A DNA stretch of 26,503 nucleotides from Paenarthrobacter nitroguajacolicus JCM 14115 (GTDB lineage: Bacteria; Actinomycetota; Actinomycetes; Actinomycetales; Micrococcaceae), in the NCBI GenBank assembly GCA_001313365.1, contig BBFS01000067.1, positions 1-26,503 of the forward strand, written 5' to 3'. The position numbers and the translations under genes are program-made. Below, piece after piece: positions 1-26,503 of the stretch. The notes under the pieces are model-generated. The model saw nothing but the letters and a program-made list of their open reading frames with translations. It made no database searches and was not told where the DNA came from. How positions within the stretch are numbered: position 1 is the stretch's first letter; the number at the start of each line of letters is the position of its first letter.

Positions 1-718
1 CCGCAGCCCCCCCCGCCCCCCCGGCACCTGCGCCCGCCCCCCCACTGGCCGGCACAGGTTCCTACACCATCAAGGCGGGCGACACCCTCAGTTCCATCGC
101 TTCCCCGCCACGGGGTTTCCCTGCCGCTTTGATGGCTGCCAACAACAATGTGACAGCCACCACCGTCATCTATCCGGGCCAGAAGCTCACCATCCCCCGG
201 CGCAGGCTTGCAGCCTGCCGGTGACACCAAGCCCTTGGTCCCCAGTACGTTCCTGGCTTCACCTACCCGCCGGCAGTTGTCAGCTCGGCTAACGAGAACA
301 AGGCCTTGCTCAACGCCTCACCTGTGCCCAGCCGGGCTGAAATGAAGAGCATCGTAGCTGACACGGCCCGGCGCATGGGCGTCAGCCTTCACTGGCTTTG
401 GCCTTCGCCGAACAGGAATCAGGCTTTGACCAGCGGGCTGTCTCGCCCGCCAATGCGATCGGCACGATGCAGGTTATTCCTTCTTCCGGCCAATGGGCGT
501 CCGACCTCGTGGGCCGCAAGCTCAATCTCCTGGACCCGTACGATAATGCCACGGCAGGTGTCGCCATCATCCGGACCCTTATTGCTACCAGCAAGGACTT
601 GGACACGGCGATTGCCGGCTACTACCAAGGTCAGTACTCGGTCAGTAAGTACGGCATGTATGACGACACCAAGCGTTACGTCGAATCGATCAAGGCCCGA
701 CAGCGCACTTTTGGCTAG
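1..718 (+). CDS. LysM-domain lytic transglycosylase (SLT fold), 5' end missing
   Basis: This is the C-terminal part of a secreted peptidoglycan-binding and -cleaving enzyme; its start lies before the window. It opens with a Pro/Ala-rich linker. A LysM domain follows (about 58-205), with YTIKAGDTLSSIA and then VIYPGQKLTIP. The C-terminal soluble lytic transglycosylase domain (about 340-715) shows LAFAEQESGFDQRAVSPANA, with the catalytic-type Glu in the EQES motif, followed by AIGTMQVIPS and IAGYYQGQ. The stop is TAG at 716-718. The reading frame shifts by one base near 200-220, 270 and 387; each fits loss of one base from a GGG or CCC run, and restoring them gives one continuous protein. LysM plus SLT predicts action on the cell wall outside the membrane. 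The next gene is a PASTA kinase, also a cell-wall-linked protein, but no co-transcription is shown because a hairpin separates them. Confidence 0.85.
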
Positions 719-739
719 GCCATCAACTGCACCTTTGAA

Positions 740-773
740 GGGGCCCGAAACCCACGTGGATTCGGGCCCCCCC
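740..773 (+). terminator. GC-rich hairpin after the transglycosylase gene
   Basis: The left arm GGGGCCCGAA (740-749) pairs with the right arm TTCGGGCCCC (761-770) around an 11-base loop. There is no T-tract, as is common in actinobacteria. The left arm has a run of 4 G while the right arm has a run of 7 C (767-773), so three C are unpaired. This asymmetry matches the suspected homopolymer errors elsewhere. Confidence 0.7.
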
Positions 774-796
774 TTCCCTGCCTCGTTTAGGATCAT

Positions 797-4368
<3,572 letters not shown>

Positions 4369-4434
4369 CCTTCAAGAGTAGTAGCCCACGGCAAGGTTGC
4401 GGGACTGCGGCCGTAACCGATGCCACCGCCTACG

Positions 4435-5233
4435 TCACAGTTTCTCCGCTGATCCGCTTCCGTCACCACGGGGTTCATCCCTGTCCTCTGCGATGTCTGA
4501 CGTGGCGTCTTCGGCAACCTCGATCTTATGGACAGGTTCGGGGGGGCCTTTGCCGGCCAACTGGGCCTTGACCACTGCTGCGTACTCGTCCACATACTCC
4601 TGACCGGAAAGCCGCATCAATTCGTACATGATTTCGTCGGTCACAGCCCTCTGGATCAGTCGGTCGTCTTCCATGCCGTAGTAGCGGCTGAAGTCCAGGG
4701 GGGGCTGCCCGAAAATGAGGCCGATCCGGCGGATGTTGGGCAGGCGTTTGCCGATGGGCTGGACCTTCTCCGTCCCGATCATTGCCACAGGCACCACGGG
4801 AACACGTGTTTGCAGTGCGAGCTTGGCCACGCCCACTTTGCCACGGTAGAGCCGGGCATCAGGGCTGCGGGTGCCTCCGGATAGATCCCCAGCAGGCCTC
4901 CGGAATTCAGGACGTCTTTGCCCGCCTGCAGTGACATTTCCGACGCCGCGCCGCCGGAACGGTCCATCGGCAGTTGGTTGCTCAGCCTGAAGAACAGCGC
5001 AGTCAGCCGGCCTTTGAGCCTTTTCCTGTGAAGTACTCGGACTTGGCCAGGAAGATCACCGGGCGACGAACCATCAGGGGGGGCAGGAAGATGGAGTCCG
5101 AGAAGGACAAGTGGTTGGAGGCCAGGATGGCAGCTCCGCTTTCAGGAACGTTGTCCAGTCCCTTCACCCAGGGACGGAACAGGAGTTTGAGGATGGGACC
5201 GAGAAAGATCCTCTTCATGACCCAATAGAACAC
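4435..5233 (-). CDS. plsC: 1-acyl-sn-glycerol-3-phosphate acyltransferase (PlsC family), copy 1
   Basis: Membrane-associated acyltransferase that adds the second acyl chain to make phosphatidic acid. The N-terminus is hydrophobic and basic (MFYWVMKRIFLGPILKLLF). Motif I, NHLSFSDS (NHxxxxD), appears at about residue 40; the Arg-Lys region and LAKSEYFTGKG follow. The substrate-binding motif should read YPEGTRSPDGRLYRGKVGVA; the sequence shows it only after repairing lost bases near 4875 and 4862. Then come VPVVPVAMIGTEKVQP and an acidic C-terminal tail with many D and E. Extra Pro residues (FLPPLMV and GQPPLDFS) coincide with 7-base G runs at 5077-5083 and 4698-4704. The start is GTG 5233 or ATG 5218. 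Position beside aroG matches the mycobacterial and corynebacterial order. A second PlsC homologue is at 22984-23720. Confidence 0.9.
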
Positions 5234-5343
5234 GTTTGTCCTCTCACGGCCGATTGGTTGGCATGCACCCGGGCAACCCGGCCGGCACTCAACAGCAACC
5301 CTACTCCAGTGAGAAATGTCAGGAACAGTGACACGATGGACGC

Positions 5344-6145
5344 ATGACGGAACGCAACAAACCCGCCGCGCCGCTCGCTTTCCACCATGCCGGACATGGA
5401 GCCAACGCCTCCATCGGCGTGGCCATCTGCCACGGCTTCACCGGAAGTCCCCCCCTCAGCGTCCTCCCTTGGGCCGAATATTTAGCCAAGCAGGGCTTCG
5501 CAGTGTCCGTGCCCCCCCTCCTTCCCGGTCATGGCACCAGTTGGCGTGACCTCGCCACCACGAGGTGGCAGGACTGGTACCGGACCTTTGAGCAGAGTTA
5601 CCTGGACCTTGCAGCGACGACGGAGACGTGTTTCGTGGCAGGGCTCTCCATGGGCGGAGCTTGGCTCTGCGGGTGGCCTCCCGCCATGAAGTTCCCGGGC
5701 TGGTCCTGGTGAACCCGGGGGCTGAGCTTCTACGACCGACGGGTGCGGTACGTCGGGGGGGCGTTGAAGTACGTCATGCCCACTACCACCCCCCATAGTG
5801 GAGGACAGGCCGGCGCCCATAACGGTCGAGGAAGGCGACTACTCCAAGACGCCGCTGAAGGCCGTCCACGAACTCAAGAAGCTCTTCCGCGCAGCTACCC
5901 GTGGCCTACCGCATGTGGAGGCTCCCGCGCTGGTGTTCAAATCCTCGGTTGACGACGTCGTCCCGCCGAGCTCAGTGGCCACCATCAGCAAGTACATCGA
6001 CTCCTCGCGCCTCAAAGTGGTCACGCTTCCACACAGCGGGCATGTGGCCACCCTGGATGTTGATGCACCCACCATTTTTGAAGAATCAGCCGGCTTTTTC
6101 CGCCAGCGTGCCGGGGGGGACAGAGTAGCCTCGGAGTCATCATGA
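5344..6145 (+). CDS. Alpha/beta hydrolase, carboxylesterase/monoacylglycerol-lipase-like, copy 1
   Basis: A serine hydrolase of about 265 residues, likely acting on carboxylic or lipid esters; the substrate is unknown. Visible features are the oxyanion-loop HGFTGSP, the LLPGHGTSW strand-turn, the nucleophile elbow GLSMGG (catalytic Ser), the acid-residue region KSSVDDVVPP and the catalytic His in LPHSGHVATLD. There is no signal peptide, so it is probably cytoplasmic. Frame breaks lie near 5662 (TTT read as TT), 5720 (an extra G) and 5790 (six C where five fit). In-frame extra residues fall at 7-base runs at 5449-5455, 5512-5518, 5755-5761 and 6113-6119. It lies directly before a paralogue: its stop TGA (6143-6145) overlaps the next ATG (6142), which suggests translational coupling. 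Confidence 0.85.
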
Positions 6146-6947
6146 AAATGCTCCCCCGACTTTTCGCCGTTCCACAGTAGCTGGAAGGGTGCCGGCCCCC
6201 CGCGTTGGTGTGGTCATGTCCCACGGGTTCACTGGAAGCCCGCACAGCGTCAGGCCGTGGGCCGAACACCTCGCCGCGTCCGGCTACGCCGTAAGGCTGC
6301 CGTTGCTGCCCGGCCACGGCACCACGTGGCAGGACATGGCCACCCGCTCGTGGCGGGAGTGGCACCGTGCCGTGGATGATGCGTACCTTGAGCTGGCTTC
6401 GGAGTGCGATTACGTTTTCTCTGCCGGTTTGTCCATGGGCGGCACCCTGGCCTTGCGGATAGCAGCCACGCGTCCCATTGCAGGGACAGTGGTGGTGAAC
6501 CCTGGACTGGTCCTGGACGATCCGCGGGCTGTCATCGTCGCTGCCCTCAAGTATGTGGTGAAGACAACTCCGGCCATCGCCAATGACATTCTCAAGCCGG
6601 ACCAGGACGAAGGTGCCTACGCCCGGACGCCAGTTGCGGCCGCTCACCAACTCAAGAAGATGTACAAGGACACAGCCGCCATCCTGCCGCGCATCAGCTC
6701 ACCCGTCAGGGTCTACAAGTCAACGGTGGACAACGTCATCTCGAACGCGAGCCTGGAGTTCCTCCGTTCCCGGGTTCAGGCACCGGTGGATGTCACTTAC
6801 CTCCACAACAGCCGCCATGTTGCCACCCTTGATAATGACGCTCCGGAGATTTTTTCCGGAACCGTCGATTTTATCCAGAAGACCGTAGCGGCCCTGGCCG
6901 GGCACGGGCTTTCCTCCGAAAAGGACACAGCCCATGAACAGGCCTGA
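6142..6947 (+). CDS. Alpha/beta hydrolase, carboxylesterase/monoacylglycerol-lipase-like, copy 2
   Basis: A paralogue of the preceding gene with the same layout: MSHGFTGSPHSVRPWAEHLA, LPLLPGHGTTWQDMA, nucleophile elbow GLSMGG, VVNPGLVLDD, KSTVDNVIS for the acid region and NSRHVATLD with the catalytic His. The start is taken as ATG 6142 (MKMLPDFSPFHSSWKGAG) because this aligns with the paralogue's N-terminus. It requires one C to be removed at 6153-6157 (5 instead of 4) and one at about 6195-6200 (6 instead of 5). Without repair, the longest open frame begins at GTG 6189. From there to TGA 6947 the frame is intact. The 3' end overlaps the following gene by 14 bases, so all three form one transcription unit. 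Confidence 0.85.
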
Positions 6948-7503
6948 TCCCAATTCTGCTGATCAAAGCGCCAACAAGGACGACGACGCCGTATGGCAGG
7001 ATCTGGTGGCCCGGCTGGAGGCCACGCAGTCAGGCCCGGAAGGGGGAATCGCCAAAGCACGGAAAGCCGCAGGACATCAACCAGGCCCCCCCGGGCCTGA
7101 AGCCGGGCTTCAGCAAGAGTCCGGCAGGACTTTCCGGGACTTCGATCCGCTGGGGTTGTCCGCACCTGCCCCGGAACCGTTACCTGATCCGGCGGCAGTA
7201 CGTGCCGATGCCGATGCCGGAATCCGGCCGTCCGGGCCTCGTGACTTCGAAGTCGAGGACGAGGACCACACCTTCGTTCCTGAGGATCCGCCCAGCCTGG
7301 CGGGAACTGAGCCGCTGGTCATGCTGGCGTGGGTGGGTGCCGTGGGCGGACCCATCGCCCTGCTTTTCACAGCCATGTTTTGGCGGTCCGCGCCGTTGAC
7401 GGCAGTTCTGGGCATTGTCGCCATTTTCGTGGCGTCAGTGGTCTACCTCATCATGCAGCTTCCGCAGGAAAAAAACGAGGACGACGACGGCGCCCGCCTC
7501 TAG
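6934..7503 (+). CDS. Conserved hypothetical membrane protein with acidic N-terminal region
   Basis: I do not recognise a named family. The protein has 189 residues. Its first 120 or so are hydrophilic and rich in D, E, P and A, with a predicted helix near VWQDLVARLEATQ. Two transmembrane helices follow: PLVMLAWVGAVGGPIALLFT and LTAVLGIVAIFVASVVYLI. A short acidic C-terminus ends in DDDGARL. The frame is intact. The ATG at 6934 lies inside the end of the second hydrolase gene, so the two are probably translated in tandem. It converges on the glucokinase gene with only 33 bases between the stops and no clear hairpin. A role with the hydrolases is possible but only inferred from the overlap. Confidence 0.7.
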   Translation: MNRPDPNSADQSANKDDDAVWQDLVARLEATQSGPEGGIAKARKAAGHQPGPPGPEAGLQQESGRTFRDFDPLGLSAPAPEPLPDPAAVRADADAGIRPSGPRDFEVEDEDHTFVPEDPPSLAGTEPLVMLAWVGAVGGPIALLFTAMFWRSAPLTAVLGIVAIFVASVVYLIMQLPQEKNEDDDGARL

Positions 7504-7536
7504 GGGGGGCACACAGCCGTTCCCAGCATGGCAAGC

Positions 7537-8616
7537 CTAGCTGCGCGCCCGTCCGCTGACACGCGACAAGTCTGCTGCGCCGATCATGCCGGCACGCGGC
7601 CCGAGGGCCGCGAGCTCGATCCTTGCCATGGGACGGAAACCCCCGCCCTGTGAGGTTCTTCGCGAATGACTCCCGGCGGGTGCGGCGAGCAACTCCCCCG
7701 CATCACACAGTCCCCCCGCCTATAACGAACATCCCGGGGGGGTCAAGTGCTGCTGCGAGGTTGGCCAACCCCCAGGCCCAACCATTCGCCTTGGTCGGCG
7801 AGGAGTTCGCGGGACGTGGCATCGCCCGCAAGTGCCAGCGAGGTCACGGCTGCGCCCGACAGGTTCTCTGCGGTCCCGCCTGCCTTCTCCAAGAGCGCAC
7901 GGCCTGCGGGGGGGAATTGGTCCGCACCAGCTGCCGGGCTTCCCGGCCCAGAGCGTTACCGGAGGCATACTGTTCCCAGCAGCCGCGGTTACCGCATTCG
8001 CAGCGGTGGCCCCCCGGGGGGGAAAATGATCTGGTGCCCGAATTCCCCCGGCAACGCCGTAGCGTCCCCCGTTCCACCCGGCCATCCATGACCATGGCAC
8101 CACCAATGCCTGTGCCCAGCGTGATGCACACCAGGCGGCTTTCGCCCTGGCCTGAGCCAAAGCGCCACTCCGCCCACGCCGCAGCATCTGCGTCATTTGT
8201 GAGCAGTACGGGACGCCTCAGCAACTTCTGGAGGCTCTCCCTCAGGGGGGGCTCGTTACGCCACGCCAGATGGGGGGGGCTGAACAGCACCGTGCCGCCG
8301 TCGAGGTCCATCCATCCTGCGGCACCGATGCCCACCGAAGCGATCCGGTGTCCTGCGCTGAGTTCGTCCACCAGCTCCACAATGGTCTGCTCGACGGCTC
8401 GGGGGGGTCCGCGCCTGGCGTGGACCTGCGTGCCTCGGCGAGGACCCTGCCCTCGGCGTCCACAACGCCGGCGGCTACCTTGGTGCCTCCGATGTCGATC
8501 CCGATCGCCAGTCCGCGGCGGCCCAAATGGCTTCGTCGGGCAGCCCAGGGCACGTCCCTCCATGCCGAGGCCGGTGGCTTGGGTCTGACCAGGGAACTGG
8601 ACCGTAGTGCGGGCAT
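7537..8616 (-). CDS. glk: ROK-family glucokinase
   Basis: Phosphorylates glucose to glucose 6-phosphate using ATP. N-terminal phosphate-binding motif: LAIGIDIGGTKVAAGVVD. Sugar-binding and catalytic segment: PVLLTNDADAAAWAEW, with the ND pair. Second phosphate motif: ITLGTGIGGAMVMDG. ROK zinc motif: GHRCECGNRGCWEQYASG, with three Cys and the upstream His. The end, IELAALGPRAGMIGAADLS, is typical for the family; the stop is TAG at 7537-7539. The start is ATG 8616. Breaks or extra residues lie near 8401-8406 (GGGGGG), 8245-8251 and 8271-8277 (extra Pro), 8072, 8019-8024, and several sites between 7640 and 7910. It lies between lipid-related genes, is transcribed divergently from the acyl-CoA ligase and converges on the small membrane protein gene. 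A polyphosphate glucokinase is less likely from the motifs, but I cannot exclude it. Confidence 0.9.
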
Positions 8617-8808: not shown

Positions 8809-10624
8809 GTGCGTGAAATCAGTGTTCCTCCCCTCGTGAACATCGCCCCCCCGGAAACCAACATCACGGACCTCGTGATCCGAGAGGCAGAAAAAGCATC
8901 CAACCCTGCGCTGTTTTCCAAGTTGGACGGCAATGGGCAGTGGCAGGACATCCGTGCCAAGGACTTCCTGCAAGACGTGAGGGCCTTGGCAAAGGGCCTC
9001 ATCGCCAGTGGAGTCGGCGTAGGCGATCGTGTGGGCATCATGTCCCGCACGCGGTACGAATGGTCCCTCGTGGACTTCGCCATCTGGTTTGCCGGAGCGT
9101 CTCTGTCCCTATCTACGAAACGTCGTCGCCTTCACAAGTGGCATGGAACCTGGGCGACTCAGGCGCTGTTGCAGCCTTTGGCGAAGCCGCGCACCATGAG
9201 GACGTCATCCGCCAGGCTGTTGCCGCAGAAGACATCACTTCGGTGGCCAACGTCTGGCAGCTTGAGGGCGCCGGACTCGATGCGCTGCGCACTGCAGGTG
9301 CAGGCGTCCCCGACGACGAACTCGAGTCCCGCCGTTCCTCAGCCGGGCTCAAGGATCTCGCTACGATTATCTACACCTCCGGTACCACCGGCAGGCCCAA
9401 GGGCTGCGAACTGACCCACGCAACTTCGTGGAGCTCTCCGAGAATGCCCGCGCTTCATTGCCGGAAATCATCAACGAGTCTGCCAAGACCATCATGTTCC
9501 TCCCCTTGGCCCACGTCTTCGCGCGTTTCATCTCCGTGCTTGCCGTGGCCGGCGGGGTGAAGGTGGCGCACACCCCCCCGGACATCAAGAACCTCTTGGC
9601 TGACCTCCAGAGCTTCCAGCCGACGTTCATCCTGGCTGTTCCCCCCGGGTCTTCGAGAAGGTCTACAACTCGGCGCTGACCAAGGCAGAGGACGGCGGCA
9701 AGGGAGCCATCTTCCACCGCGCAGTGGATACTGCAATCGCCTATTCCAAAGCACGCGAGTCCGGTTCGCTGGGACTTGGCTTGAAGCTCAAGCACGCCTT
9801 GTTCGACAAACTCGTCTACGGCAAACTCCGTGCGGCGATGGGCGGCCATGTTGCCCACGCAGTCTCGGGAGGCGGTCCGTTGGGTGAACGACTCGGGCAC
9901 TTCTTCCAGGCATCGGCCTGCAGATCCTGGAGGCTACGGCCTGACCGAGACCACGGCGCCGATCTCCGTGAACACACCGTCCATGATCAAGATCGGCACG
10001 GTAGGTGCCCCCTTGCCGGGCAACTCGGTCAAGATCGCCGACGACGGGGAAATCCTCGCCAAGGGTGTCTGCGTCATGCGCGGCTACTACAAGCGTGAAG
10101 ACCTGACTGACGAAACGTTTGCTGACGGCTGGTTCCGCACCGGAGACATCGGCGAACTGGACAACAACGGCTTCCTCAAGATCACTGGCCGCAAGAAGGA
10201 AATCATCGTTACTGCCGGCGGAAAGAACGTGGTTCCTGCCCTGCTCGAGGACCAGATCCGCGCGGATGCGTTGGTTTCCCAGGTTCTTGTGGTGGGCGAC
10301 AACCGTCCATTCATCGGCGCTGGTCACCCTGGACGAAGAAGCGCTCCCGGGCTGGCTGGACCGCCACGGGCTCCCGGCCGGCACCACAGTCGCCGAAGCA
10401 CCGACCACCCGGTGGTTAAGGCAGCAGTCCAGGAACTCATCAGCAAAGCCAACCAGTCGGTGTCCCAGGCTGAGGCCATCAAGTCCTTCAGGATCGTTCC
10501 GGCGGACTTCACCGAAGCCTCGGGTCACCTGACGCCATCCCTCAAGGTCAAGCGGGCCCAGGTCATGAAGGACTTCGACACCGTCATTGAGGAAATGTAC
10601 ACAGCACCCCCCCGCGCGTCCTAG
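8809..10624 (+). CDS. fadD15: Long-chain fatty acid-CoA ligase (AMP-forming), FadD15-like
   Basis: Activates fatty acids to acyl-CoA through an acyl-adenylate. Adenylate-forming motifs in order: [17 protein letters not shown] (ATP P-loop), [29 protein letters not shown] (after two one-base repairs near 9911 and 9938), [20 protein letters not shown] (the Asp binding the ribose), [17 protein letters not shown] (hinge), and TPSLKVKR with the C-terminal catalytic Lys. The expected length is about 600 residues. GTG 8809 is preferred as the start because AAAGGAG lies five bases before it; GTG 8788 is in frame but has no such site. Frame breaks lie near 9104, 9424, 9648-9653 (six C for four), 9911, 9938, 10320 and 10408. 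Extra Pro residues sit at 8848-8854 and 9575-9581. A terminator follows directly. It belongs to the conserved block with pknL, aroG and plsC. Confidence 0.92.
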
Positions 10625-10650: not shown

Positions 10651-10696
10651 AAAAAGTACCCCCCCGTCCGGATTCTTCCGGACGGGGTACTTTTTT
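10651..10696. terminator. Bidirectional terminator between acyl-CoA ligase and pyc
   Basis: A strong hairpin with A-tract before and T-tract after: GTACCCC...GTCCGGA (10656-10672) against TCCGGAC...GGGGTAC (10677-10690), then TTTTTT. It serves both convergent genes. The left arm carries 7 C (10659-10665) but its partner only 4 G (10684-10687). Confidence 0.92.
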
Positions 10697-10706: not shown

Positions 10707-13700
10707 CTAGCCGATCACCAGCAGCAAGTCGCCGCCCTGGACCTGCTCAACCGAGGAAATGGCGAGGCGGGAGACCGTGCCGGCCACCGGCGTCGTGATG
10801 GATGCTTCCATCTTCATCGCCTCAATGGTGGCAACGGTGTCGCCGGCGTTGACGACATCGCCCACCTTGACCGTTACGGTGACTGCGCCGGCAAACGGTG
10901 CGGCAACCTGGCCTGGCTGTGCCGGATCTGCCTTTTCCGCGGCCTTGACATTGCTGACCACGGATCGGTCACGAACAACAACGGGCCTGGACTGGCCGTT
11001 GAGCGTGCACATCACAGTGCGCATGCCCTTCTCGTCGGCTTCTGAGACGGCCTCAAGCTGGGCAATGAGGCGTACGCCCTTCTCTAGCTCGATAACGTGC
11101 TCTGCGCCCTGCTGGAGACCGTACAGGTAGTCACGGGTGTCCAGCACGGAGATGTTGCCGTAAGTGTCAACGCTCTTCAGGTAGTCCTTGGTGGGTCCCG
11201 CGAAGAGCAAACGGTTCAGCGTGTGCTGCCGCGTCTTGGAATCACCCTTCAGCGCGGCGCTGTCCTCGGCGCTGATGTCGACGTCGCGCACCTTGACGCT
11301 GCGGCCTTGAAGGGCCTTGGTGCGGAACGGCTCCGGCCAGCCTCCGGGAGGATCACCGAGCTCCCCGGAGAGGAAGCCGATGACGGAGTCCGGGATGTCG
11401 TAGTTCTGCGGGTTCTCGTTGAAGTCCGCGGGATCGGCGTTGAGTCCTACAAGGTGCAACGCAAGATCGCCTACCACCTTGGAGGATGGGGGGGTGACCT
11501 TCACCAAACGGCCCAGGATCCGGTCAGCCGCCGTGTACATGTCCTCGATGGCCTCGAACTGCTCCCCCCCAGGCCCAAAGCGATGGCCTGCTGGCGAAGG
11601 TTTGACAGCTGGCCGCCGGGGATTTCGTGCTGGTAGACGCGGCCAGTGGGGCCCGGAAGACCGGATTCGAAGGGGGCATAGACGCGACGAACGGCTTCCC
11701 AGTAGGGCTCAAGGGAACCCACGTTGGCCAGGCTGAGCCCGGTATCGCGGGGGGGTGTGTTGGCCAATGCAGCGACCAGTGCCGACGCGGCGGGCTGACT
11801 TGTGGTGCCGGCCAGGGATGCAGATGCCACGTCAACGGCATCCACGCCAGCGTCAACAGCAGCCAGCAAAGTGGCAAGCTGGCCACCCGCAGTGTCGTGC
11901 GTGTGCAGGTGGACGGGCAGGTCGAAGCGCTCACGCAGGGCAGATACCAGTTTCGCGGCAGCGGCCGGACGCAGGAGGCCTGCCATGTCCTTGATGGCGA
12001 GGATGTGTGCACCGGCGTCGACGATCTTCTGGGCGAGGTCCAGGTAGTAGTCGAGGGTGTAGAGGTCCTCGTTCGGGTCCAGGAGGTTGCCTGTGTAGCA
12101 AAGAGCCACCTCGGCGACGGCCGTCCCCCCCGTTGCACGCACGGCCCGAATGGCGGGGGCCATCTGGTTGACGTCGTTGAGGGCGTCAAAGATACGGAAG
12201 ATGTCAATGCCCGTAGCGGCAGCCTCGTTAACGAAGGCCTCCGTCACTTCTTCCGGGTAGGGGGTGTAGCCCACGGTGTTGCGTCCGCGGAGCAGCATCT
12301 GGATACAGGTGTTCGGCAATGCCTTGCGCAGTGCAGCCAGGCGGTCCCACGGGTCCTCACCCAGGAAGCGAAGTGCGACGTCGTAAGTTGCGCCGCCCCC
12401 CCAGGCCTCCACGGAAAGCAGCTCGGGCATGAGTGCCGTCACTGCCGGACCGGCGGCCACGAGGTCGCGGGTGCGCACCCGTGTTGCCAGCAGGGACTGG
12501 TGGGCGTCGCGGAACGTGGTGTCCGTAACAGCCAGCGCCTGCTGCTCACGGAGGGCCTTGGCAAAGCCCTCCGGCCCAAGTTCGATCAACTTCTGGCGCG
12601 AACCCGACGTGGGAACCGGTCCATCGATCGTCGGCAGCTTGCTGGCAGGGTCCGAATGGACAGCGAGCTCGCCGTTGGGCTTGTTCACGGTGACCTCAGC
12701 CAACCAGGTGAGCAACTTGGTTCCACGGTCTGCTGAGATGTGCGACTTCAGCAGCTCAGGGCGCTTGTCGATGAAGTCCGTGGCCACGTTTCCGGCGTTG
12801 AAGTCCGGATCCGCGAGAACAGCCTGCAGGAATGGAATGTTGGTGGACACGCCACGGATACGGAACTCAGCCAAACCACGACGCGCGCGGGCTACGGCCG
12901 CAGGGTAGTCGCGGCCACGGCATGTCAGCTTCACCAGCATTGAGTCGAAGTGCGGGCTGATCTCGGCACCGGAGTAAACAGTGCCGCCGTCGAGCCTGAC
13001 ACCGGCGCCACCGGCAGAACGGTAGCCGGTGATCTTTCCAACGTCAGGACGGAAACCGTTGGAGGGGTCTTCGGTGGTGATGCGGCACTGCAGCGCAGCA
13101 CCCTTGATGGACACCGAATCCTGGCTCAGCCCAAGGTCCGCAAGGGTTTCCCCCCCGAGGCGATCCGCATCTGAGCCTGCACGAGGTCCACGTCGGTGAT
13201 TTCCTCGGTGACGGTGTGCTCCACCTGGATGCGGGGGGGTTCATCTCAATGAAGACGTGCTGGCCGGCCCGCTCCCCCTTCTGTGTCCACCAGGAACTCC
13301 ACAGTTCCGGCATTGACATAGTTCAAGGCCTTCGCGAACGCCACGGCGTCGCGGTAAAGGGCCTGACGAATGTTCTCGTCCAGGTTCGGCGCGGGCGCAA
13401 TCTCCACCACTTTCTGGTGGCGGCGCTGCAACGAACAGTCACGCTCGAAGAGGTGCATGACGTTGCCTTCGGCGTCGGCCAGGATCTGCACTTCGATGTG
13501 GCGGGGGGGACGCAGAACTGCCTGCTCAAGGAACATGGTGGGGGGGTCGCCGAAAGCTGCATCGGCTTCGCGCATGGCGGACTGCAAAGCTTCGGGAAGG
13601 GCTTCGCGCGTCTCCACACGCCGCATGCCACGGCCGCCACCGCCGGCGACGGCCTTGGCGAAGATGGGGGGGAAGCCGATCTCGTCGGCGGCAGCGATGA

Positions 13701-14133
13701 GCTCATCAAGGTCCTTGGAGGGCTTGCTCGACTTCAGGACCGGGACACCGGCCTTGCGGGCGGCTTCCAGGGCAGCAACCTTGTTGCCAGCGAGCTCCAG
13801 GACCTCCGCGGGCGGGCCCACGAAGGTAATGCCTGCTGCCTTGGCAGCGCGGGCGAGGTCCGGGTTCTCGGAGAGGAAGCCATAGCCGGGGGGGTAAATT
13901 GCGTCAGCGCCGGCTTCTTTGGCGACGCGGACAACCTCCTCTACGTCCAGGTAGGCGCGGACGGGATGGCCCACCTCGCCGATCAGGTAAGCTTCGTCGG
14001 CCTTCTGCCGGTGGATCGAGTTACGGTCCTCATGCGGAAAGACGGCTACGGTCTTGGCGCCCAGTTCATAACCAGCGCGAAACGCCCTGATCGCGATTTC
14101 GCCGCGATTGGCCACCAGAATTTTCGAAAACAT
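10707..14133 (-). CDS. pyc: Pyruvate carboxylase
   Basis: Biotin-dependent anaplerotic enzyme that carboxylates pyruvate to oxaloacetate; about 1130 residues in one chain. Biotin carboxylase domain: [82 protein letters not shown] (after repair near 13230 and 13270). Carboxyltransferase domain: [64 protein letters not shown]. Biotin carrier domain: [20 protein letters not shown] with the biotinylated Lys in EAMKMEA; the protein ends LLLVIG. The start is ATG 14133 with AGGAG upstream. Frame breaks lie near 13156-13230, 13267-13271 (5 for 4) and 11564-11570 (7 for 5). Extra residues sit at 12398-12404, 13504-13510 and 13541-13547. It is transcribed away from parA; a CRP-like site lies about 75 bases upstream of the start. 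Confidence 0.96.
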
Positions 14134-15283: not shown

Positions 15284-15322
15284 AAGAAGGCCTCGTCCCC
15301 CCCCTAGGGACGAGGCCTTCTT
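15284..15322. terminator. Bidirectional terminator between parA and merR
   Basis: Arms AAGAAGGCCTCGTCCC (15284-15299) and GGGACGAGGCCTTCTT (15307-15322) form a perfect 16-bp stem, with TT following. The loop is CCCCCTA, inflated by a run of 8 C (15297-15304). It serves both convergent genes. Confidence 0.9.
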
Positions 15323-17417: not shown

Positions 17418-17434
17418 AGGCAGATACCCCCCCG

Positions 17435-17910: not shown

Positions 17911-17928
17911 GGAATTTCCTCCTCATCC

Positions 17929-18042: not shown

Positions 18043-18048
18043 ATAACT

Positions 18049-18438
18049 TTAGCCTACCTGTTGTTCGTACTCCGATGCACTGAGCAGGGAATCCACTGCA
18101 TCAGCTTCTGCAAGCTTTACTTCAATTAACCATCCCTCGCCGTACGGGTCCGAGTTAATGAGCGCCGGATCAGTGTCCAGGGCGTCATTTCGATTGGTGA
18201 CTTCACCAGTCACCGGGGGGGCGTAGATATCACTGACACTTTTCGTGGACTCCACTTCGCCAACAACTTCATTGCCGGTGACTTTCGTGCCCGGCTCAGG
18301 CATCTGGGCGTAGACAACGTCACCCAAGGCGTCCTGCGCGAAGTCGGTGATGCCAATGCGCACAACGCCATCGGCATCTGGAGCGGTAACCCACTCGTGT
18401 TCTGCGGTGTAGGAAAGTTCTTCCGGAATATTGCTCAC
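18049..18438 (-). CDS. gcvH: Glycine cleavage system H protein
   Basis: The lipoyl carrier of the glycine cleavage system; it shuttles the methylamine group between GcvP, GcvT and the L protein. Key features: SYTAEHEWV near the N-terminus, VRIGITDFAQDALGDVVYAQ, and VGEVESTKSVSDIYAP with the lipoylated Lys in ESTK. Then GEVTNRN and SDPYGEGWLIEVKL, ending EYEQQVG. There are 129 codons plus stop, close to the family's usual length. The start is GTG 18438 with AAAGG seven bases upstream; the open frame extends further upstream but the extra residues are not GcvH-like. One extra Pro (APPVTGE) lies on the 7-G run 18216-18222. No gcvP or gcvT lies in the window; gcvH leads the garA cluster instead, as in mycobacteria. 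Confidence 0.95.
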   Translation of the reverse strand: MSNIPEELSYTAEHEWVTAPDADGVVRIGITDFAQDALGDVVYAQMPEPGTKVTGNEVVGEVESTKSVSDIYAPPVTGEVTNRNDALDTDPALINSDPYGEGWLIEVKLAEADAVDSLLSASEYEQQVG

Positions 18439-18557
18439 TGGTGGCCTTTCATCGGGACATTTACGAACCTCGACGGCGGCCTTGCTGATGGCCACCGCTG
18501 AAAGTATAGGCACATTTCCCCCCCTGCACCTCATGGGGTCTCTGCCATGATTGACCC

Positions 18558-19148: not shown

Positions 19149-19155
19149 GACGCAG

Positions 19156-19188
19156 GAAGCCCGCCATGGGATATCCATGGCGGGCTTC
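19156..19188. terminator. Bidirectional terminator after the four-helix membrane protein
   Basis: A perfect 14-bp stem, GAAGCCCGCCATGG (19156-19169) and CCATGGCGGGCTTC (19175-19188), with loop GATAT, is followed by TTCGTGTT. It separates the membrane protein gene from the convergent transporter gene. Confidence 0.9.
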
Positions 19189-19220
19189 TTCGTGTTGCGG
19201 CCTTGCTTTGTAGTCCAGCG

Positions 19221-20438
19221 TCAGGCGACGGTGGCCTCACGTGGTTCGCGTTCGACGTCGGGAGTTACAGCAGGCGCCGCCACTCCCCCCCTGCGCTTTG
19301 CTGCTGCCGCTGCCGCTGCCGCCAGCATGACCAGCAGCGCGGCAACGGTAATTCCGGCTCCAGCCAGATGGGCGAGGTGTAGCCGAGGCCGGCGGTGATG
19401 GTAACGCCCCCCCCGAGCCAGGCCCCCCCGAGTGCGTTGCCGAGGTTGAACGCGCCGATGTTCGCGCCGGATGCGAGCGTTGGTGCTGTGGAGGCAAAGT
19501 GCATCACGCGCATCTGGAGGCCCGGTACGGTGGCGAATCCGAAGCCGCCCAAGAGCGCCAGTGACACCAGGGTGGCGATGCTGTTGGACGCGGTGAGGGC
19601 GAAGAAGACCAGCACCGCCACCAGTCCGGCAAGGATGACAATGAGGGACTTGTCCAGGCTTTGTCGGCAGCCTTGCCACCCAGGAAGTTCCCAACAAACA
19701 GGCCACCACCGAAGAGCACCAGGAGCCACGGCACGGCGCGGACTCGAATCCGGACACCTCGGTGAGAGTGAAGGCGATATAGGTGAAGGCGCCGAACATG
19801 CCGCCGAACCCGAGGATGGTCACCATGATGGAAAGCCATACCTGACCGGACTTGAACGCGCCCAGTTCGCTGCGGAGGCCCTTGGTTGGTTCCGTGCTGG
19901 CTTTAGGGACCATCAGGCAATGCCGATCAGCGCCACGACGCCGATGGCGGTGATCGCCCAGAAAGTAGAACGCCAACCGAAGTTCTGGCCCAGCAGCGTC
20001 CCAAAGGGAACACCCAGGACGTTGGCCGCAGTGAGGCCGGTGAACATGATGGCGATGGCACCGGCTTTCTTGTGTGCCGGCACCAGGCTCGCGGCAACTA
20101 CGGAACCGATGCCGAAGAATGCGCCATGGCAAAGCGCTGCGATGATGCGGCCGATCATCATGGCCGCGTAGCTGTCGGCTATCGCGGAAAGAAAGTTGCC
20201 GGCGATGAACAGGACGAGCAAACCAATAAGGACCGGTTTTCGCGGGAGCTTGTGACTGCGGCCGTCACCAGGAGTGCGCCAACGGCAACGCTGAGGCATA
20301 GCCGGAGATGAACCAACCGGCCGAAGCCTCACTGACCTGGAAGTCGGCGGCAACTTCGGGCAAGAGGCCCATGATCACGAATTCGGTCAGTCCGATGCCG
20401 AATCCGCCGAGGGCAAGGGCAATCAACCCTGCGGGCAT
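19221..20438 (-). CDS. Major facilitator superfamily transporter (DHA1-like efflux permease)
   Basis: A membrane transporter of about 400 residues with twelve expected helices; probably drug or sugar efflux, substrate unknown. The N-terminus MPAGLIALALGGFGIGLTEF, then VIMGLLPEVAADFQVSEASA and GWFISGYA, is typical of AraJ/YdhP-type DHA1 proteins. Later segments include LIGLLVLFIAGNFLSAIADS, MMIGRIIAALCHGAFFGIGS, FTGLTAANVLGVPFGTLLGQ, FWAITAIGVVALIGIA and, in the second half, GFATVPGLQMRVMHFASTAP and LASGANIGAFNLGNALGGAW. The start is ATG 20438 with AAGGAG six bases upstream; the stop is TGA at 19221-19223. Frame breaks lie near 20300, 20240, 19915, 19740 and 19660. Runs of C at 19408-19414 and 19424-19429 add residues or shift frame. 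It is divergent from a MarR gene, which probably represses it. Confidence 0.9.
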
Positions 20439-20502
20439 GTGGAGCTCCTTAAAGTTCGGTTCCGATCAGAAGTGGAAGTGCGTCGTCGGGAACCGTAGAA
20501 TA

Positions 20503-20559
20503 ATAGTTGCAGACGCTCTATATATAGTTGCACACGCTAGATAGTTGCGCAAACAACTA
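20503..20559. promoter_or_regulatory. MarR-type operator array between the MFS and marR genes
   Basis: ATAGTTGC occurs three times (20503-20510, 20524-20531, 20541-20548), 21 and 17 bases apart. The second and third copies are followed by or embedded in symmetric contexts. TAGTTG (20542-20547) and CAACTA (20554-20559) form a perfect 6-bp inverted repeat around CGCAAA. The AT-rich TCTATATATAG at about 20517-20527 could be a promoter element. This patch is much more AT-rich than its surroundings and lies between two divergent genes. Confidence 0.65.
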
Positions 20560-20607
20560 CTTTTGGATGCGTCGCGATCACTACATCGAGGCAGGAGCAC
20601 AGCAGGC

Positions 20608-21054
20608 ATGGGCATCAAGGACGACGCCGTAGAAGTACGGGCGCAGGGCTGGCGAACCCTGGCCGCCCTTCACGGAAGCATCGAAGCCGAACTGGAGAAG
20701 GCACTCCAGGCCTCGAGTGACCTGTCGGTAGTGGAGTACACGGTACTGGATGCGCTGAGTCGCCAGGACGGCTGGCACATGCGGATGCAACAGCTGGCCC
20801 GCGCCACTGCCCTATCCAGCAGCGCTACCACCCGCCTGGTCAACCGCCTCGAGGACCGTGGCCTGCTTACGCGCATCCTGTGCGCCGATGACCGTCGAGG
20901 CATTTACACCGAACTCACAGTGGACGGCCAGAAGCTTCTGGAGGAGGCCAAGCCCGTACATGACGAGACCCTGGCCTCCGCCCTGGAGGCCGCCGAGTCC
21001 ATGCCGGAGCTGGAACCGCTGGTGAGGGCGCTCGGCGCGTTGCAGAAGGTCTAG
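20608..21054 (+). CDS. MarR-family transcriptional regulator
   Basis: A dimeric winged-helix repressor of 148 residues. The MarR core is clear: GWRTLAALHGSIEAELEKAL, LSVVEYTVLDALSRQDG, MRMQQLARATALSSSATTRL (recognition helix), VNRLEDRGLLTRILCADDRR (wing, with the DDRRG turn) and YTELTVDGQKLLEEAKPVH. The frame is intact from start to stop. ATG 20608 is preferred because MGIKDDAVEVRAQGW fits the family start; GTG or ATG codons further upstream (20545) would add an atypical leader that overlaps the operator zone. It is transcribed away from the MFS gene and likely controls it and itself. The inducer is unknown. Confidence 0.92.
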   Translation: MGIKDDAVEVRAQGWRTLAALHGSIEAELEKALQASSDLSVVEYTVLDALSRQDGWHMRMQQLARATALSSSATTRLVNRLEDRGLLTRILCADDRRGIYTELTVDGQKLLEEAKPVHDETLASALEAAESMPELEPLVRALGALQKV

Positions 21055-21060
21055 CCCGAT

Positions 21061-21121
21061 CCCGGTCTTGTTTGTATCCCCCCGGCGTTCAACGCAGGGG
21101 GGGGATACAAACAAGACCGGG
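21061..21121. repeat. Long near-perfect palindrome after marR
   Basis: Arms CCCGGTCTTGTTTGTAT (21061-21077) and ATACAAACAAGACCGGG (21105-21121) are perfect complements. Inside them lie a 6-C run (21078-21083) opposite an 8-G run (21097-21104), then GCGTT and AACGC flanking a single C at the centre. If the runs were equal the hairpin would have about 28 pairs. It may be the marR terminator, but it lacks a T-tract and its arms are AT-richer than nearby DNA. Confidence 0.75.
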
Positions 21122-21143
21122 ACTAAACGAAGCATTAACGACC

Positions 21144-21184
21144 AAAGGCCGGAATCACCGTGTTTCCACGTGATTCCGGCCTTT
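21144..21184. terminator. Terminator of the tRNA-Pro gene
   Basis: AAAGGCCGGAATCAC (21144-21158) pairs with GTGATTCCGGCCTTT (21170-21184); GTG and CAC extend the stem past one bulged C, around loop TTTC. On the - strand it follows the tRNA 3' end by one base and is followed by GGTCGTTAATG. Confidence 0.8.
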
Positions 21185-21185
21185 A

Positions 21186-21262
<77 letters not shown>

Positions 21263-21403
21263 CTGGTTCCACCGTTCTCCGCCTAAGTTTTCCTCCGAAG
21301 AGTCCCACCTAAGCAGTCCGGCCGAACCACCTCCAAAAGCTTACACGAAGTTGGAGGTCGGAGACGCCATCACAGCCAAAGTGGGCTGTGATGCCCGTCT
21401 CAC

Positions 21404-22973
21404 TTAGCGCTTCTTGCCACGCTTCTCGCGTACGCGCATGTTGACCTCGATGGGTGTGCCCTCGAAGCCGAACGTTTCGCGGAGGCGACGCGTGATGAAG
21501 CGACGGTATCCGGGGGGGTCCAGGAAGCCGGTGGTGAACAGCACGAACTTCGGCGGACGGCTGGATGCTGGGTGCCAAAGAGGATACGGGGGGGCTGCTT
21601 TCCGCCACGAACCGGGTGCGGGTGGGCTGCCACGAGTTCGCCAAGGAACGCGTTGAGGCGTCCGGTGGGGGGGATGCGGCGGTCCCAGCTCTCCAGCGCG
21701 ATGTCCAGCGCGGGGGGGACCAGGCGGTCCTTATGCCAGCCGGTCTTGGCCGAGATGTTCACGCGGGGGGGTGCCCACTCCACGTGGGCCAGGTCCTGCT
21801 CGATTTCACGCTCAAGGTAACGGCGGCGTTCGTCGTCCAGGAGGTCCCACTTGTTGAACGCGAGCACCAGCGCACGGCCGGACTCAATGGCCAGCTGCAG
21901 GATACGGACGTCCTGCTCGCTGAGGACCTCGTCGACGGCAAGAAGCACGACGCGACCTCCGCCTTTTCGAGGGCGGCCTGCGTACGCAGGGAAGCGTAGA
22001 AGTCGGCGCCCTGTGCCATGTGCTGGCGGCGGCGGATACCTGCGGTGTCCACGAAGCGCCACGTGCGGTCGCCAAGTTCGATGAATTCGTCAACCGGGTC
22101 GCGGGTAGTGCCGGCCAGCGGATCCACCACAACGCGCTCGGAGCCTGCGAGCTTATTCAGCAGGGAGGACTTACCCACGTTCGGGCGACCGATCAGGGCG
22201 ATACGGCGGGGGGGACCGCCGGAACGCTCAACGCCGTCCACCAGCGAGTACTCGGGCAGGGTGTCCATGACGTGGTCCAGGAGGTCGGCAACGCCACGGC
22301 CGTGCAGAGCCGAAACCGGGTACGGCTGGCCGAAGCCCAAGCCCCCCCACAGGGCAGCGGAATCGGCCTCCTGTGCGAAGTCATCCACCTTGTTGGCCAC
22401 CATGATGACCGGCTTCTTGCTCTTGCGGAGCATCTTCATGACGCCCTCGTCAGTCGCGGTCGCTCCAACGGCGGAGTCAACGACGAAAAGCACGGCGTCG
22501 GCAAGCTCTACGGCCATTTCGGCCTGCTCGGCTACGCGGGCGTGGATGCCCTTGCGTCGTGCTCCCAACCACCGGTATCCACCAAGGTGAAGTTGCGGCC
22601 GTTCCAGCGCGCCGAGTACATGACGCGGTCGCGGGTAACGCCCGGGGTGTCCTCCACAACAGCTTCGCGGCGGCCGAGGATGCGGTTGACCAAGGTGGAC
22701 TTGCCCACGTTGGGGGCGTCCGATGATGGCCAGAACCGGGTCCAGCTTGAGGGGACCTTCGTCGCCTTCATCGCCGTATTCACCGCTGAGCAGCGCGGCA
22801 TCTTCTTCGTCGAGTTCGTAGTCCTCCAGGCCTGCCCGGAGGGTGGCCGCGCGAAGCTCGGCTTCGTCGTCGTCGAGGGCCGCCAGGTTTTCCGCCACCT
22901 GGTCGGTGCCGGTGGGCGTGTATTCGTCGTCGCCGGCTCCGTGGAGGCCGGATTTTTGAGTCGTATCGCTCAT
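21404..22973 (-). CDS. der: Ribosome biogenesis GTPase Der (EngA)
   Basis: Essential double GTPase for 50S subunit maturation. An acidic N-terminal extension of about 75 residues, usual in actinobacteria, precedes the first G domain: [18 protein letters not shown] (after repair of a 5-C run near 22712), [18 protein letters not shown] and MVANKVDD. The second G domain has [45 protein letters not shown] and [11 protein letters not shown]. The C-terminal KH-like domain includes [40 protein letters not shown] and EKRGKKR; the stop is TAA at 21404-21406. The start is ATG 22973 with AAGGAAAG upstream. Frame breaks lie near 22712, 22560, 21955 and 21570. Extra residues sit on 7-base runs at 22208-22213 and 22345-22350, and others near 21585, 21665, 21713 and 21765. 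It lies 10 bases after plsC2, last in the rluB-tyrA-cmk chain. Confidence 0.95.
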
Positions 22974-22983
22974 TGCACTTTCC

Positions 22984-23720
22984 TTAGTGGTGGTCTGCCG
23001 GCGTCCCGGCTACTGCTGTATGGCGGTGCTGCGAAGTGGGTTCGCCGGGCGCAGGTTCCAGGGGAAGGCCCTGGCCTGTGGCCCGGATGGCGTCCTGGAC
23101 GTGTTCGGCCAGGGCTTCACGGATCTCCGCAGCCGCCCTGTCCATTGAAACACGCCCGGGTTCGCCCTTCCGGCGCTTCACCGTGATGGGTTCACCGAAG
23201 CTGACATGCAGCTTGCGGCGGGGTTTGGGGATATGTCTCGATGCTCATCACCCTGGCGGGTTCCGAGAATGGCCACAGGGATGACGGTAGCTCCCGAGTT
23301 GAGGGCGAGCCATGCAACTCCACTGCTGATGCTTTCGGCAGAGCCGCTCCCCCGGGTTCCTTCGGGGAGAATCCCTACGCAACGACCGGCGTCGAGCAGT
23401 CTCCTGCCGACATGCAGGGCGGTGCGATCACCGGCGCGGTCAACTGGAATCTGTCCGGATCCCCTCAGGACAGAGCCCAGGAAGCCTTTGAACATCTCCT
23501 TTTTAACGAGGATATGCATGGGGCGCGGCGACGCACCGTACATCACGGGCCCATCCAGGAAGCTGATGTGGTTCGCGGCAAATATCACGGGTCCGGCAGC
23601 GGGAACGTTGCTTTTGCCTGCCACGATGGTCCGGTAGATGACGTGATCCAGGAACCAACCAACCGGTCGGCTCCACATCTTGCTCCCCCCACAGAGGGGG
23701 AGCTGATTCTCAGTCACCAT
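22984..23720 (-). CDS. 1-acyl-sn-glycerol-3-phosphate acyltransferase (PlsC family), copy 2
   Basis: A second PlsC-like acyltransferase of about 245 residues. Motif [19 protein letters not shown] (NHxxxxD). Then [38 protein letters not shown] (EGTR glycerol-phosphate motif) and [20 protein letters not shown]. The C-terminus should continue through [20 protein letters not shown]; a break near 23226-23232 hides this. The stop is TAA at 22984-22986. The start is ATG 23720, inside the last codons of cmk (11-base overlap), so translation is coupled. Position between cmk and der is conserved in actinobacteria, where the product is annotated as a lysophospholipid acyltransferase. The physiological difference from copy 1 (4435-5233) cannot be told from sequence. 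Confidence 0.92.
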
Positions 23721-24427
23721 AGATAACCTTGCTCACGATCGCCAAGGCGGTCTGGACGGTTTCCTCAAAGTTCAGTTCCGAAGAATCGAGTGTCACCACA
23801 CCGTCGGCCGCCTGGGTGAAGTTCACTACCGTTGAGTCCTTGGCGTCACGCTGGATTACCTGGGCATTGAGCTGTTCTTTGGTCTGCGTGCCGCCCAACT
23901 GGATCCCACGACGCCGCATCCTGGCTTCCTCGCTGGCGGTCAAGAGCATGCGGACCTCGGCATTGGGGGGGACGACGACGGTGGTGATGTCGCGCCCCTC
24001 CACCACCATGCGGCGGTGGTGCTGATCGATCAGCTCGCGCTGGCGACGGATCAGCTCGGTGCGGGCACCGAGCGTCGTGGCGACAGCACTGACCGACGAC
24101 GAGATCAAAGGATCCCGGATTTCGTCCGTGATGTCCGTTCCATCAACCGCCACATACTCCGTGGCAGTCGTGGTGCTGATCTCCAGCGGCATGATTTTGG
24201 AAGCCTGTTCCACCGCAGCGCCATCCTGGAGGTCAACGCCGGTCTTGAGGCAGTACCACGTCAGCGCCCGGTACATTGCGCCGGTATCCAGGTATGCCAG
24301 TTTCAAGCGCCGGGCAACTTCCTTGCTGACGCTGGACTTGCCGGACCCCCGAAGGGCCGTCAATTGCGATCACGAGCGGCTTGCCGGGACGGGCAACTGT
24401 TTCCGGGCCAAAAAATTCACGCGTCAT
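23710..24427 (-). CDS. cmk: Cytidylate kinase
   Basis: Essential enzyme that phosphorylates CMP and dCMP with ATP. The N-terminus reads MTREFFGPETVARPGKPLVI, then AIDGPSGSGKSSVSKEVARR (P-loop) once one G is removed at 24345-24349, where 5 replace 4. Next are YLDTGAMYRALTWYCLKTG, ITDEIRDPLISSSVSAVA, MVVEGRDITTVVVPNAEV, then LTASEEARMRRRGIQL and VIQRDAKDSTV. It ends VSKVIYGD, with stop TGA at 23710-23712. ATG 24427 overlaps the stop of tyrA (TAATG). An extra Pro (VVVPPNAEV) lies on the G run at 23966-23972. It is second in a four-gene overlapping chain, so expression is likely coupled with tyrA and plsC2. Confidence 0.95.
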
Positions 24428-25546
24428 TACTGAAGTACCCGCCATCCACGGTCAGTCAAAGCTTCAACAAGGAGGTCATGCTTGCTGGGAAGCACGGAAA
24501 GTTCCACCATGCCCACGTTCTGTCCCGACGAATGGTCGAGCCGAAGGTCTTCGAGGTTCACCCCCCCGATCTCGCCGATCTCCGTGAGGAGGTGCGCGAT
24601 CTGGCCGGGCTTGTCATCCACCAGGATGGTGAGCCACGAGTACGCCTGGGGGAGGTCCGCCGTGCTTGCCCGGGATCCTGGCCTGGCCTGCATTCCCCCC
24701 CTCGCTGATGAGCTGGGCAAGGTCAAGCCGTGCACCGGGTGCAAGCGGTTCTTCCAAGGTACCGATCAAACGGTTCAGGTCCTCGCGCACACCGTGCAGG
24801 ATGGACACCACCTTTTCCGCGTTGCCGCCCCAGGATCTGTACCCAGAGGGTGGGATCGCTTGCTGCAATGCGGGTAGTGTCCCTGAGTCCGTTGCCCGCC
24901 AAGGAGAGGGCATGCAGCGGCGTGCCTTGCAAACGGCTCGCCAGAAGCGACGACATGATCTGCGGCAGATGCGACACCAACGCCACGGCTTCATCATGCT
25001 CGTCCGCGGTGAACTGGGAAACGATCGCTCCCAGATCGCCCGCAAGTGAACGTGCAGCCTGAAGTGCAGCATCCGACGTTTCTTCGGAGGGGGGGCAAAG
25101 CACCCAGGGCATGGAGGTGAAAAGCTCTCCCCCTGGCCGCAACCGGGCCGGACTTCTCCCTGCCTGCCATGGGGGGGTGGGTACCCACATAGCGGGCAAG
25201 GTCCACGCCGCGTTCGCGCAGCTGCGCCTGGATGGTGGCTTTGACGCTGGCAATATCAGCCACGACGCGGACGGGTAGTCCGCCAGGGCCTTCTGCACGA
25301 CGTCTGCTGTAACATCCGGCGGAGCCGCGACAACTACCAGTTGGGGTTCTTCATCCAGCTCCCCCAACGGACGTCCTGCACCGATATCCACCGCGACCGC
25401 CTGGTTGGTGGGCGAAGGATCGAAAAGGAAAACCGGGACCCCGCGTCCGCGCAGGCCCAGGCCGATGCTGGCTCCAAGCAAGCCTGTACCGAGGACGACG
25501 ACCGGGCCATCAAGATGACCCCTGCCGTGCGTACCGAATGCGACAT
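24427..25546 (-). CDS. tyrA: Prephenate dehydrogenase with C-terminal ACT domain
   Basis: Tyrosine biosynthesis enzyme that oxidatively decarboxylates prephenate with NAD(P)+. N-terminal Rossmann motif: VVVLGTGLLGASIGLGLRGR. Then LVVVAAPPDVTADVV, ADIASVKATIQAQLRERG, YVGTHPMAGREKSGP (the catalytic-type His and conserved GREKSG), HDEAVALVSHLPQIMSSLLA and LAGNGLRDTTRIAASDP. A C-terminal ACT domain, WLTILVDDKPGQIAHLLTEI through MVELSVLPSKHDLLVEAL, suggests feedback control, probably by tyrosine. The start is ATG 25546 (MSHSVRTAGV), two bases before the rluB stop; one lost C near 25525 must be restored. Other breaks: about 25275, 25155-25180, 25120, 24820 and 24690. The stop, TAA at 24427-24429, shares a base with the cmk ATG. 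With aroG at 2968-4368 it is the second aromatic-pathway gene here, but the two are far apart. Confidence 0.93.
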
Positions 25547-25548
25547 GC

Positions 25549-26503
25549 CTAGAGTCCCACCGATGCCAGGAGGTGTCCGACTTCCTGCCTGCCGAGGTTG
25601 CGGATGCTGCCCTGGCGCTGGTCGCCCAAGCCAATGGGGGGCCCACCTTGACGCGGACAAGACGCTCCACCGGGAACCCGACGGCGTCGAACATGCGACG
25701 CACAATACGGTTCTTGCCCGAGTGCAGGACAACCTCAATCAGGACGTGGCCTGGAGTGGAGTCCACCAATCGGAAGGAATCCACTGCAGCAACGCCGTCT
25801 TCAAGCTCGACGCCGTTCTTCAGCTTGGCGCCCACACCTTGCGGGAACGGGCCACGCACCTGGACCAGGTACGTCTTGGGTACCTCATACGAAGGGTGCG
25901 TCAAGCGGTTGGCAAGTTCGCCGTCGTTGGTCAGCAGCAGCAGTCCCTCAGTGGCGACATCGAGGCGGCCGACGTGGAACAGTCGTTCGCCCTTGTTCTT
26001 GTTGTTCTTGAGGAAGTCGCTGATGCAGGGACGGCCCTCGGGGGGGTCTTCCATGGTGGAAACGACGCCCTTGGGCTTGTTGAAGACCATGTAGACGAGG
26101 GTTTCGTCCAGCTGGATCCGGATGCCATCGACGTGGATGACGGCAGACGTTGGGTCCACTCGCATACCAAGTTCGGTGGTAACCACTCCATCAACTTCGA
26201 CGCGTCCTTCGAGGATCATTTCCTCGCACACACGGCGTGAAGCCACACCAGCCTGTGCCATGACCTTCTGCAGGCGGACGCCGTCAACGTCGTGAAGGTC
26301 GGACTGCGGGACTTCCTGGCGCGGGCCGCGGTTGCGACCCGGCTTCCGGATGGGTCCCAGGTTCTGGCCGAAGCGTTCGCTGCCGAAGGCCTTGGAGCCG
26401 TACTGCCGTGCAGGTTTCGCCTTGGGCTTCAGCGCCCGGAGTGCCGGGGCTTTGCCGAAGCCGGGCTTGTTGGAGCCTGGCTTGCGGAAGGGCTTTGCGG
26501 GCC
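25549..26503 (-). CDS. rluB: 23S rRNA pseudouridine synthase (RluB/RsuA family), 5' end beyond window
   Basis: Converts a specific uridine of 23S rRNA to pseudouridine. An S4 RNA-binding domain (KVMAQAGVASRRVCEEMI, then LEGRVEVDGVV) is followed by the synthase domain: YMVFNKPKGVVSTMEDPEGR, LFHVGRLDVATEGLLLLTND (catalytic Asp in RLD), LTHPSYEVPKTYLVQVRG, VLHSGKNRIVRRMFDAVGFP and VKRLVRVKVGP-like VERLVRVKVGP. It ends QEVGHLLASVGL with stop TAG at 25549-25551. Before the S4 domain lies a long basic Lys/Pro/Gly-rich tail (KPFRKPGSNKPGFGKAPALR and more), running off the window end, so the start is not seen. A break near 25637 changes the last 25 residues and artificially fuses the frame to tyrA. 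An extra Pro lies at 26041-26046. Confidence 0.93.

Follow-up and report, generated by a model that had tools for sequence, protein, structure and literature searches.

The stretch of DNA analysed here, called the window, comprises 26,503 bases (positions 1 to 26503, unstranded; 63% G+C) and is apparently a whole contig, the protein collection searched assigning its own protein, P0006, to a single contig of 26,503 bases. It raises the question of whether its many long runs of G and of C, present throughout, belong to the organism or to the way in which the record was made. Runs of G have length 4 in 21 cases, 5 in 12, 6 in 2, 7 in 39 and 8 in 4, and runs of C have length 4 in 24 cases, 5 in 17, 6 in 11, 7 in 25 and 8 in 4. 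Combined, the 159 G/C runs of at least four bases form two peaks, with 45 fours, 29 fives, 13 sixes, 64 sevens and 8 eights. A base-to-base Markov expectation yields 3.4 runs of seven G and 3.3 of seven C, compared with the observed 39 and 25, but the same stretch in near relatives is a better control.

The nearest of the 121 genus genomes searched (a sample of a larger group) is G071, which presents 94% identity over window positions 11627-14130, and 91.5% and 92.8% identity in two alignments covering nearly the whole window. Together with four others at 89-91% identity it forms the set of five near genomes; G087 (89%), as near as some of these, was left out. The named relatives are Arthrobacter sp. 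18067 (L001), at 84%, and Paenarthrobacter sp. CM16 (L069), at 83%. In the same stretch of the five near genomes there are 0.0 7-base runs per 10 kb, compared with 24.1 in the window, and 49.6-55.3 4-base runs per 10 kb, compared with 17.0. The 4-base and 7-base runs of the window add up to 41 per 10 kb, which is close to the usual density of fours. Across 80 relatives' loci, 12 runs of seven occur in 1,584,016 bases. The excess of 7-base G/C runs in the window is real, and far beyond chance.

The preliminary description, made from the letters of the window, had claimed that its G and C runs are systematically too long, and had proposed a comparison of run lengths with close genomes. The claim holds in a stronger form than stated, with 64 sevens against none in the five relatives, and the comparison shows an excess of sevens and a shortage of fours in the window relative to these genomes. 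For the sixteen individual runs it had placed, twelve sets of coordinates are exact, two are displaced by one base (18216-18222 in gcvH should be 18215-18221, and 24345-24349 should be 24346-24350), and two by seven (9648-9653 should be 9641-9646, and 13267-13271 should be 13274-13278). The original lengths it had proposed for these runs agree with the relatives in 15 of 16 cases, the exception being run 2668-2674, which was a four and not a five.

The spike at seven was also sought in wider surveys. Among 101 genus genomes (a sample of a larger group), the number of 7-base runs ranges from 0 to 56 per genome, and the whole 5.2 Mb genome behind L001 contains 13. Among 396 genomes of the phylum (also a sample), the maximum is about 2.6 per 10 kb, compared with 24.1 in the window; the density in the window is thus about nine times that of the densest genome, G292, which has 741 such runs in about 2.8 Mb. 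A second genome with the same spike was found neither among 6 genomes, nor among the 101 of the genus, nor among the 396 of the phylum, these sets overlapping in part. One genome of the genus survey, G057, is the opposite outlier, with no 7-base runs and 18 6-base runs, compared with at least 200 6-base runs in each of the other genomes surveyed; this deficit may be another assembly artefact or a true difference.

The rule of the length change was obtained from an anchored set, in which the window was compared with G071 and a run was accepted if the four bases next to it on either side matched without a gap. Single G/C bases are unchanged in 4199 of 4199 cases, 2-base G/C runs in 1558 of 1565 (7 shortened), and 3-base G/C runs in 304 of 315 (10 shortened, 1 lengthened). 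From four bases upward the picture is different: among 55 4-base runs, 16 stay, 11 become 5, 1 becomes 6 and 27 become 7, with none shortened, and among eight 5-base runs, five stay and one each becomes 6, 7 and 8. Single A/T bases are unchanged in 3327 of 3330 cases (3 lost, with one single A/T base gained), 2-base A/T runs in 714 of 717 (3 shortened), and A/T runs of three to six bases in 142 of 142 (115/115 for length 3, 20/20 for 4, 6/6 for 5 and 1/1 for 6). No growth of A/T runs of length 1-6 relative to G071 is found in the anchored set.

In a looser set, the original length was taken as the majority among 3-7 relatives, with an agreement of at least 70%, which resolved 151 of the 159 G/C runs of at least four bases and left 8 aside. 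The 112 inferred fours of this set read 4 in 37 cases, 5 in 15, 6 in 5 and 7 in 55; the other inferred originals are 29 fives, 1 six, 7 threes and 2 twos. Given the looser set starts from window runs of at least four bases, shrunken fours would escape it; the anchored set has none. Of the 64 window 7-base runs, 61 are resolved: 55 gained three bases, 5 gained two, and 1 shares a gain of four with a touching run. No single run among the 151 gains more than three bases, since both entries of +4 belong to one touching pair, a C-run and a G-run at 8010-8022, with a shared gain. Inferred fives become 8 in 6 resolved cases and 7 in 5. When events backed by at least four of the five near relatives are counted as supported (20 less-supported events were set aside), 91 lie in or beside the 159 G/C runs of at least four bases, compared with 43 elsewhere, and the supported insertions at these runs comprise 58 of +3, 21 of +1 and 10 of +2. 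The length change has a threshold at four bases, is limited to G and C, and has a preferred gain of exactly three.

Two observations count against the technical explanation favoured below. The first is the presence of runs in the looser set that do not follow the rule: of its 151 runs, 3 appear to have lost one base, and for 9 the relatives imply an original of fewer than four bases. The second is a weak clustering of the outcomes of true fours in their order along the window (41 switches, compared with 50.5 expected, P = 0.026). The flanking-base context of fours that became 7 differs little from that of fours that stayed 4 in six tests, the best of which (C 3' of a G-run, 25/55 versus 8/37) yields an uncorrected P of 0.026. 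Likewise, G runs and C runs become 7 at rates that do not differ significantly (34/51 versus 21/41, P = 0.14, with fours read as 5 or 6 left out). Between 22751 and 23523, six successive G/C runs with an inferred length of 4 read 4, as though the outcome depended on local coverage or on a polishing block.

Of the 43 supported events outside the G/C runs of at least four bases, 41 are deletions (37 of one base, 3 of two and 1 of three) and 2 are insertions. The 37 one-base deletions, spread over the whole window and mostly of G or C, are a second error class. A search for a methylation-type motif around them gave nothing significant, the best P being 0.0007 among 2560 patterns. For nineteen further 3-base G/C runs, the interval reaching ten bases beyond the run in each direction is one base short on balance, the loss not necessarily lying inside the run. 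The preliminary description missed these 37 deletions, as well as the limitation to G/C runs of at least four bases and the sparing of A/T runs.

The effect on genes was assessed with gene models built on the conserved open reading frames of G071, of which 25 were chosen and 24 lie inside the window. Counting run and non-run events together, and including those backed by at least three of the five relatives, frame shifts are present in 20 of the 24 models; the four models without one are gcvH, a bfn-like gene and two of unknown function. The gene der, for the ribosome biogenesis GTPase (21404..22973, minus strand), has 4 frame-shifting and 7 in-frame differences, cmk, for (d)CMP kinase (23710..24445, minus strand), has 1 of each, and pyc, for pyruvate carboxylase (10707..14133, minus strand), has 4 frame-shifting and 8 in-frame differences. 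Both der and cmk are essential genes. The relative's copies served to check the families of der (an NCBIfam equivalog), cmk (TIGR00017), gcvH, ftsR, the PASTA Ser/Thr kinase, class II DAHP synthase and prephenate dehydrogenase, and Pfam identifies cmk and pyc on the window's own fragments; the names pknL and bfn are labels of the preliminary description. A tRNA gene (21189..21262, minus strand; Rfam RF00005, 65.3 bits) has C4 and C5 runs that are unchanged, with a net length difference of zero in 15 of 15 relatives. At 24723-26501 (minus strand), an RluB-like pseudouridine synthase and a prephenate dehydrogenase dimerization domain share a single open frame; this is a false fusion, the relative having two separate gene models.

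Fours read as 7 account for 48 of 98 inside gene models and for 7 of 14 outside them. Given this share is equal in both, selection on the reading frame is not the cause of the +3 steps, and in-frame selection as their source is ruled out by the non-coding runs. The gain of three comes from the process itself and not from selection. The errors depend on which base is repeated and on how long the run is, and take no account of where genes lie or of their reading frame.

The N-terminal part of pyc (13246..14133, minus strand), which contains Pfam domains Biotin_carb_N and CPSase_L_D2, carries four extra prolines that fall at four G7 runs (13503, 13540, 13666 and 13888). Protein P0007, which comes from another record and is labelled Paenarthrobacter nicotinovorans, matches the in-frame part of this fragment at 282 of 282 aligned residues, with 0 mismatches, and lacks the extra prolines; these are absent from all 10 homologues aligned (the first 10 after the window's own protein among at least 120 listed, P0007 included). 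The DNA thus probably comes from a Paenarthrobacter. The window's own protein, entry P0006 of the protein collection, includes the four surplus prolines and stops at a false end. The artefact from this contig has thus reached a protein collection, which is a warning for users.

Evidence that requires no relative is provided by hairpins. In a terminator-like hairpin (10651..10696, unstranded), C7 at 10659-10665 faces G4 at 10684-10687, where the relatives imply arms of 4 and 4 (agreement 7/7 and 5/7). In a long palindromic hairpin (21062..21122, unstranded), C6 at 21078-21083 faces G8 at 21097-21104, where the relatives imply arms of 5 and 5 (agreement 5/7 and 6/7). The flanking stems of both otherwise pair correctly, and unequal arms are expected if each arm was mis-measured independently. 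The arms of a third hairpin, at 15284-15322, are likewise unequal, but the original arm length is uncertain because of the loop, and this hairpin was left out of the count.

The long G/C runs are almost certainly a sequencing or assembly error and not a biological feature. This was the technical origin put forward in the preliminary description, and it is supported by the 20 broken gene models, the equal share of +3 inside and outside genes, the unequal hairpin arms, and a P0007 record without the inserts. As for the route, a nanopore-type consensus with a length model miscalibrated for G/C runs of at least four bases is the probable one, platform and software being judged from the type of error. 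The record would be a long-read consensus, most likely of the nanopore type, from a pipeline in which run length is estimated apart from base identity, and the length model (whether part of the basecaller, of the polisher or of a decoder of run lengths) would be miscalibrated for G/C runs from four upward, so that the dispersed signal from a true four would be scored as a seven. If the scatter among the reads exceeded that of the training set, the broad column of a length such as 7 could beat the narrow column of 4, which would give a jump rather than a drift in run length. The one-base deletions along the window, most of them of G or C, may be a product of the same poor consensus.

The literature is consistent with such a route in part. 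MarginPolish, whose run-length-encoded consensus resembles the proposed pipeline in deciding length apart from base with a separate table per base, picks the maximum-likelihood run length from that table, for which human DNA and a single basecaller supplied the training data; according to its authors, errors of calibration seemed to affect a simple Bayesian model of length (PMC7483855). Separate tables per base make a length error limited to G/C natural; MarginPolish is cited as a type of tool, and its link to the window is an analogy. The Homopolish authors suggest that basecallers may overfit particular run lengths, and describe a draft assembly dominated by insertions (PMC8011154). One basecaller overcalled runs of 5-15 (PMC5889714), Nanopolish extends long runs (PMC6854639), and run shortening is also known (PMC5889714, PMC12007338). 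Like the homopolymer indels of long reads (nanopore or PacBio), those of the window sit in homopolymers, break genes and vanish in comparison with relatives (PMC8011154, PMC12007338, PMC6321869), but they differ in that growth occurs only at G/C runs of at least four bases, and mostly by exactly three. In the profile of PMC12007338, deletions at A/T runs are commonest; in the window, unlike in that profile, whose features are common in it but do not define long-read error, deletions do not prevail, A/T runs are not hit most, and G/C runs of at least four bases grow. Literature searches for a gain specific to G/C brought up none among the papers listed. Given the excerpts of PMC5889714, PMC6854639, PMC7483855, PMC12007338, PMC8011154 and PMC6321869 do not describe a gain of three limited to G/C, the platform is a guess from the type of error.

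The main technical rival, which overlaps with the general technical origin, is a polisher that tests homopolymer lengths within a fixed range (e.g., up to +3), with gains piling up at the limit. The range is a supposition, but Nanopolish was run with a dedicated homopolymer option in published assemblies (PMC5889714, PMC6854639), and both the ceiling of three among the 151 resolved runs and the six fives read as 8 agree with a limit of this kind. The five resolved fives that became 7 are unlike a pure +3 ceiling, and we consider this explanation possible, yet rather unlikely.

The remaining explanations are biological. If the runs were real, a lineage would have grown its G/C tracts, with reading frames preserved through steps of +3 or restored by slippage in expression. 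The commonest change is indeed in frame, with 58 supported insertions of +3 compared with 21 of +1 and 10 of +2. However, outside gene models the +3 share is the same as inside, the 20 frame-broken models are broken partly by deletions outside the runs, the hairpin arms are unmatched, and P0007 lacks the inserts, which makes real growth highly improbable. Even less credible is its specific form, a living Paenarthrobacter population that carries +3 tracts at about half of its former 4-base runs, with broken frames rescued in expression.

Phase-variable simple sequence repeats, as in Helicobacter or Neisseria, include G/C tracts of at least seven bases in coding sequence. The window likewise has tracts of 7-8 G or C inside coding genes, but its 64 7-base runs extend along the whole 26.5 kb contig and into housekeeping genes such as der, pyc and gcvH, rather than being confined to a few contingency genes, and the same stretch of the five relatives has none of that length; we therefore give contingency loci next to no probability. 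Ordinary decay of the chromosome segment into pseudogenes, in keeping with 20 of 24 broken models, is just as negligible, since it would not target G/C runs of at least four bases while sparing A/T runs, and the in-frame part of Pyc has no substitution in 282 residues relative to P0007.

A technical error in the consensus thus remains the preferred reading. The fingerprint it leaves (a surplus of 7-base and a deficit of 4-base G/C runs beside normal A/T runs) is computable from the letters of a sequence and would reveal other records produced in the same way. As biology, it has no importance: given the length error is technical, the broken genes of this record are not to be read as real.
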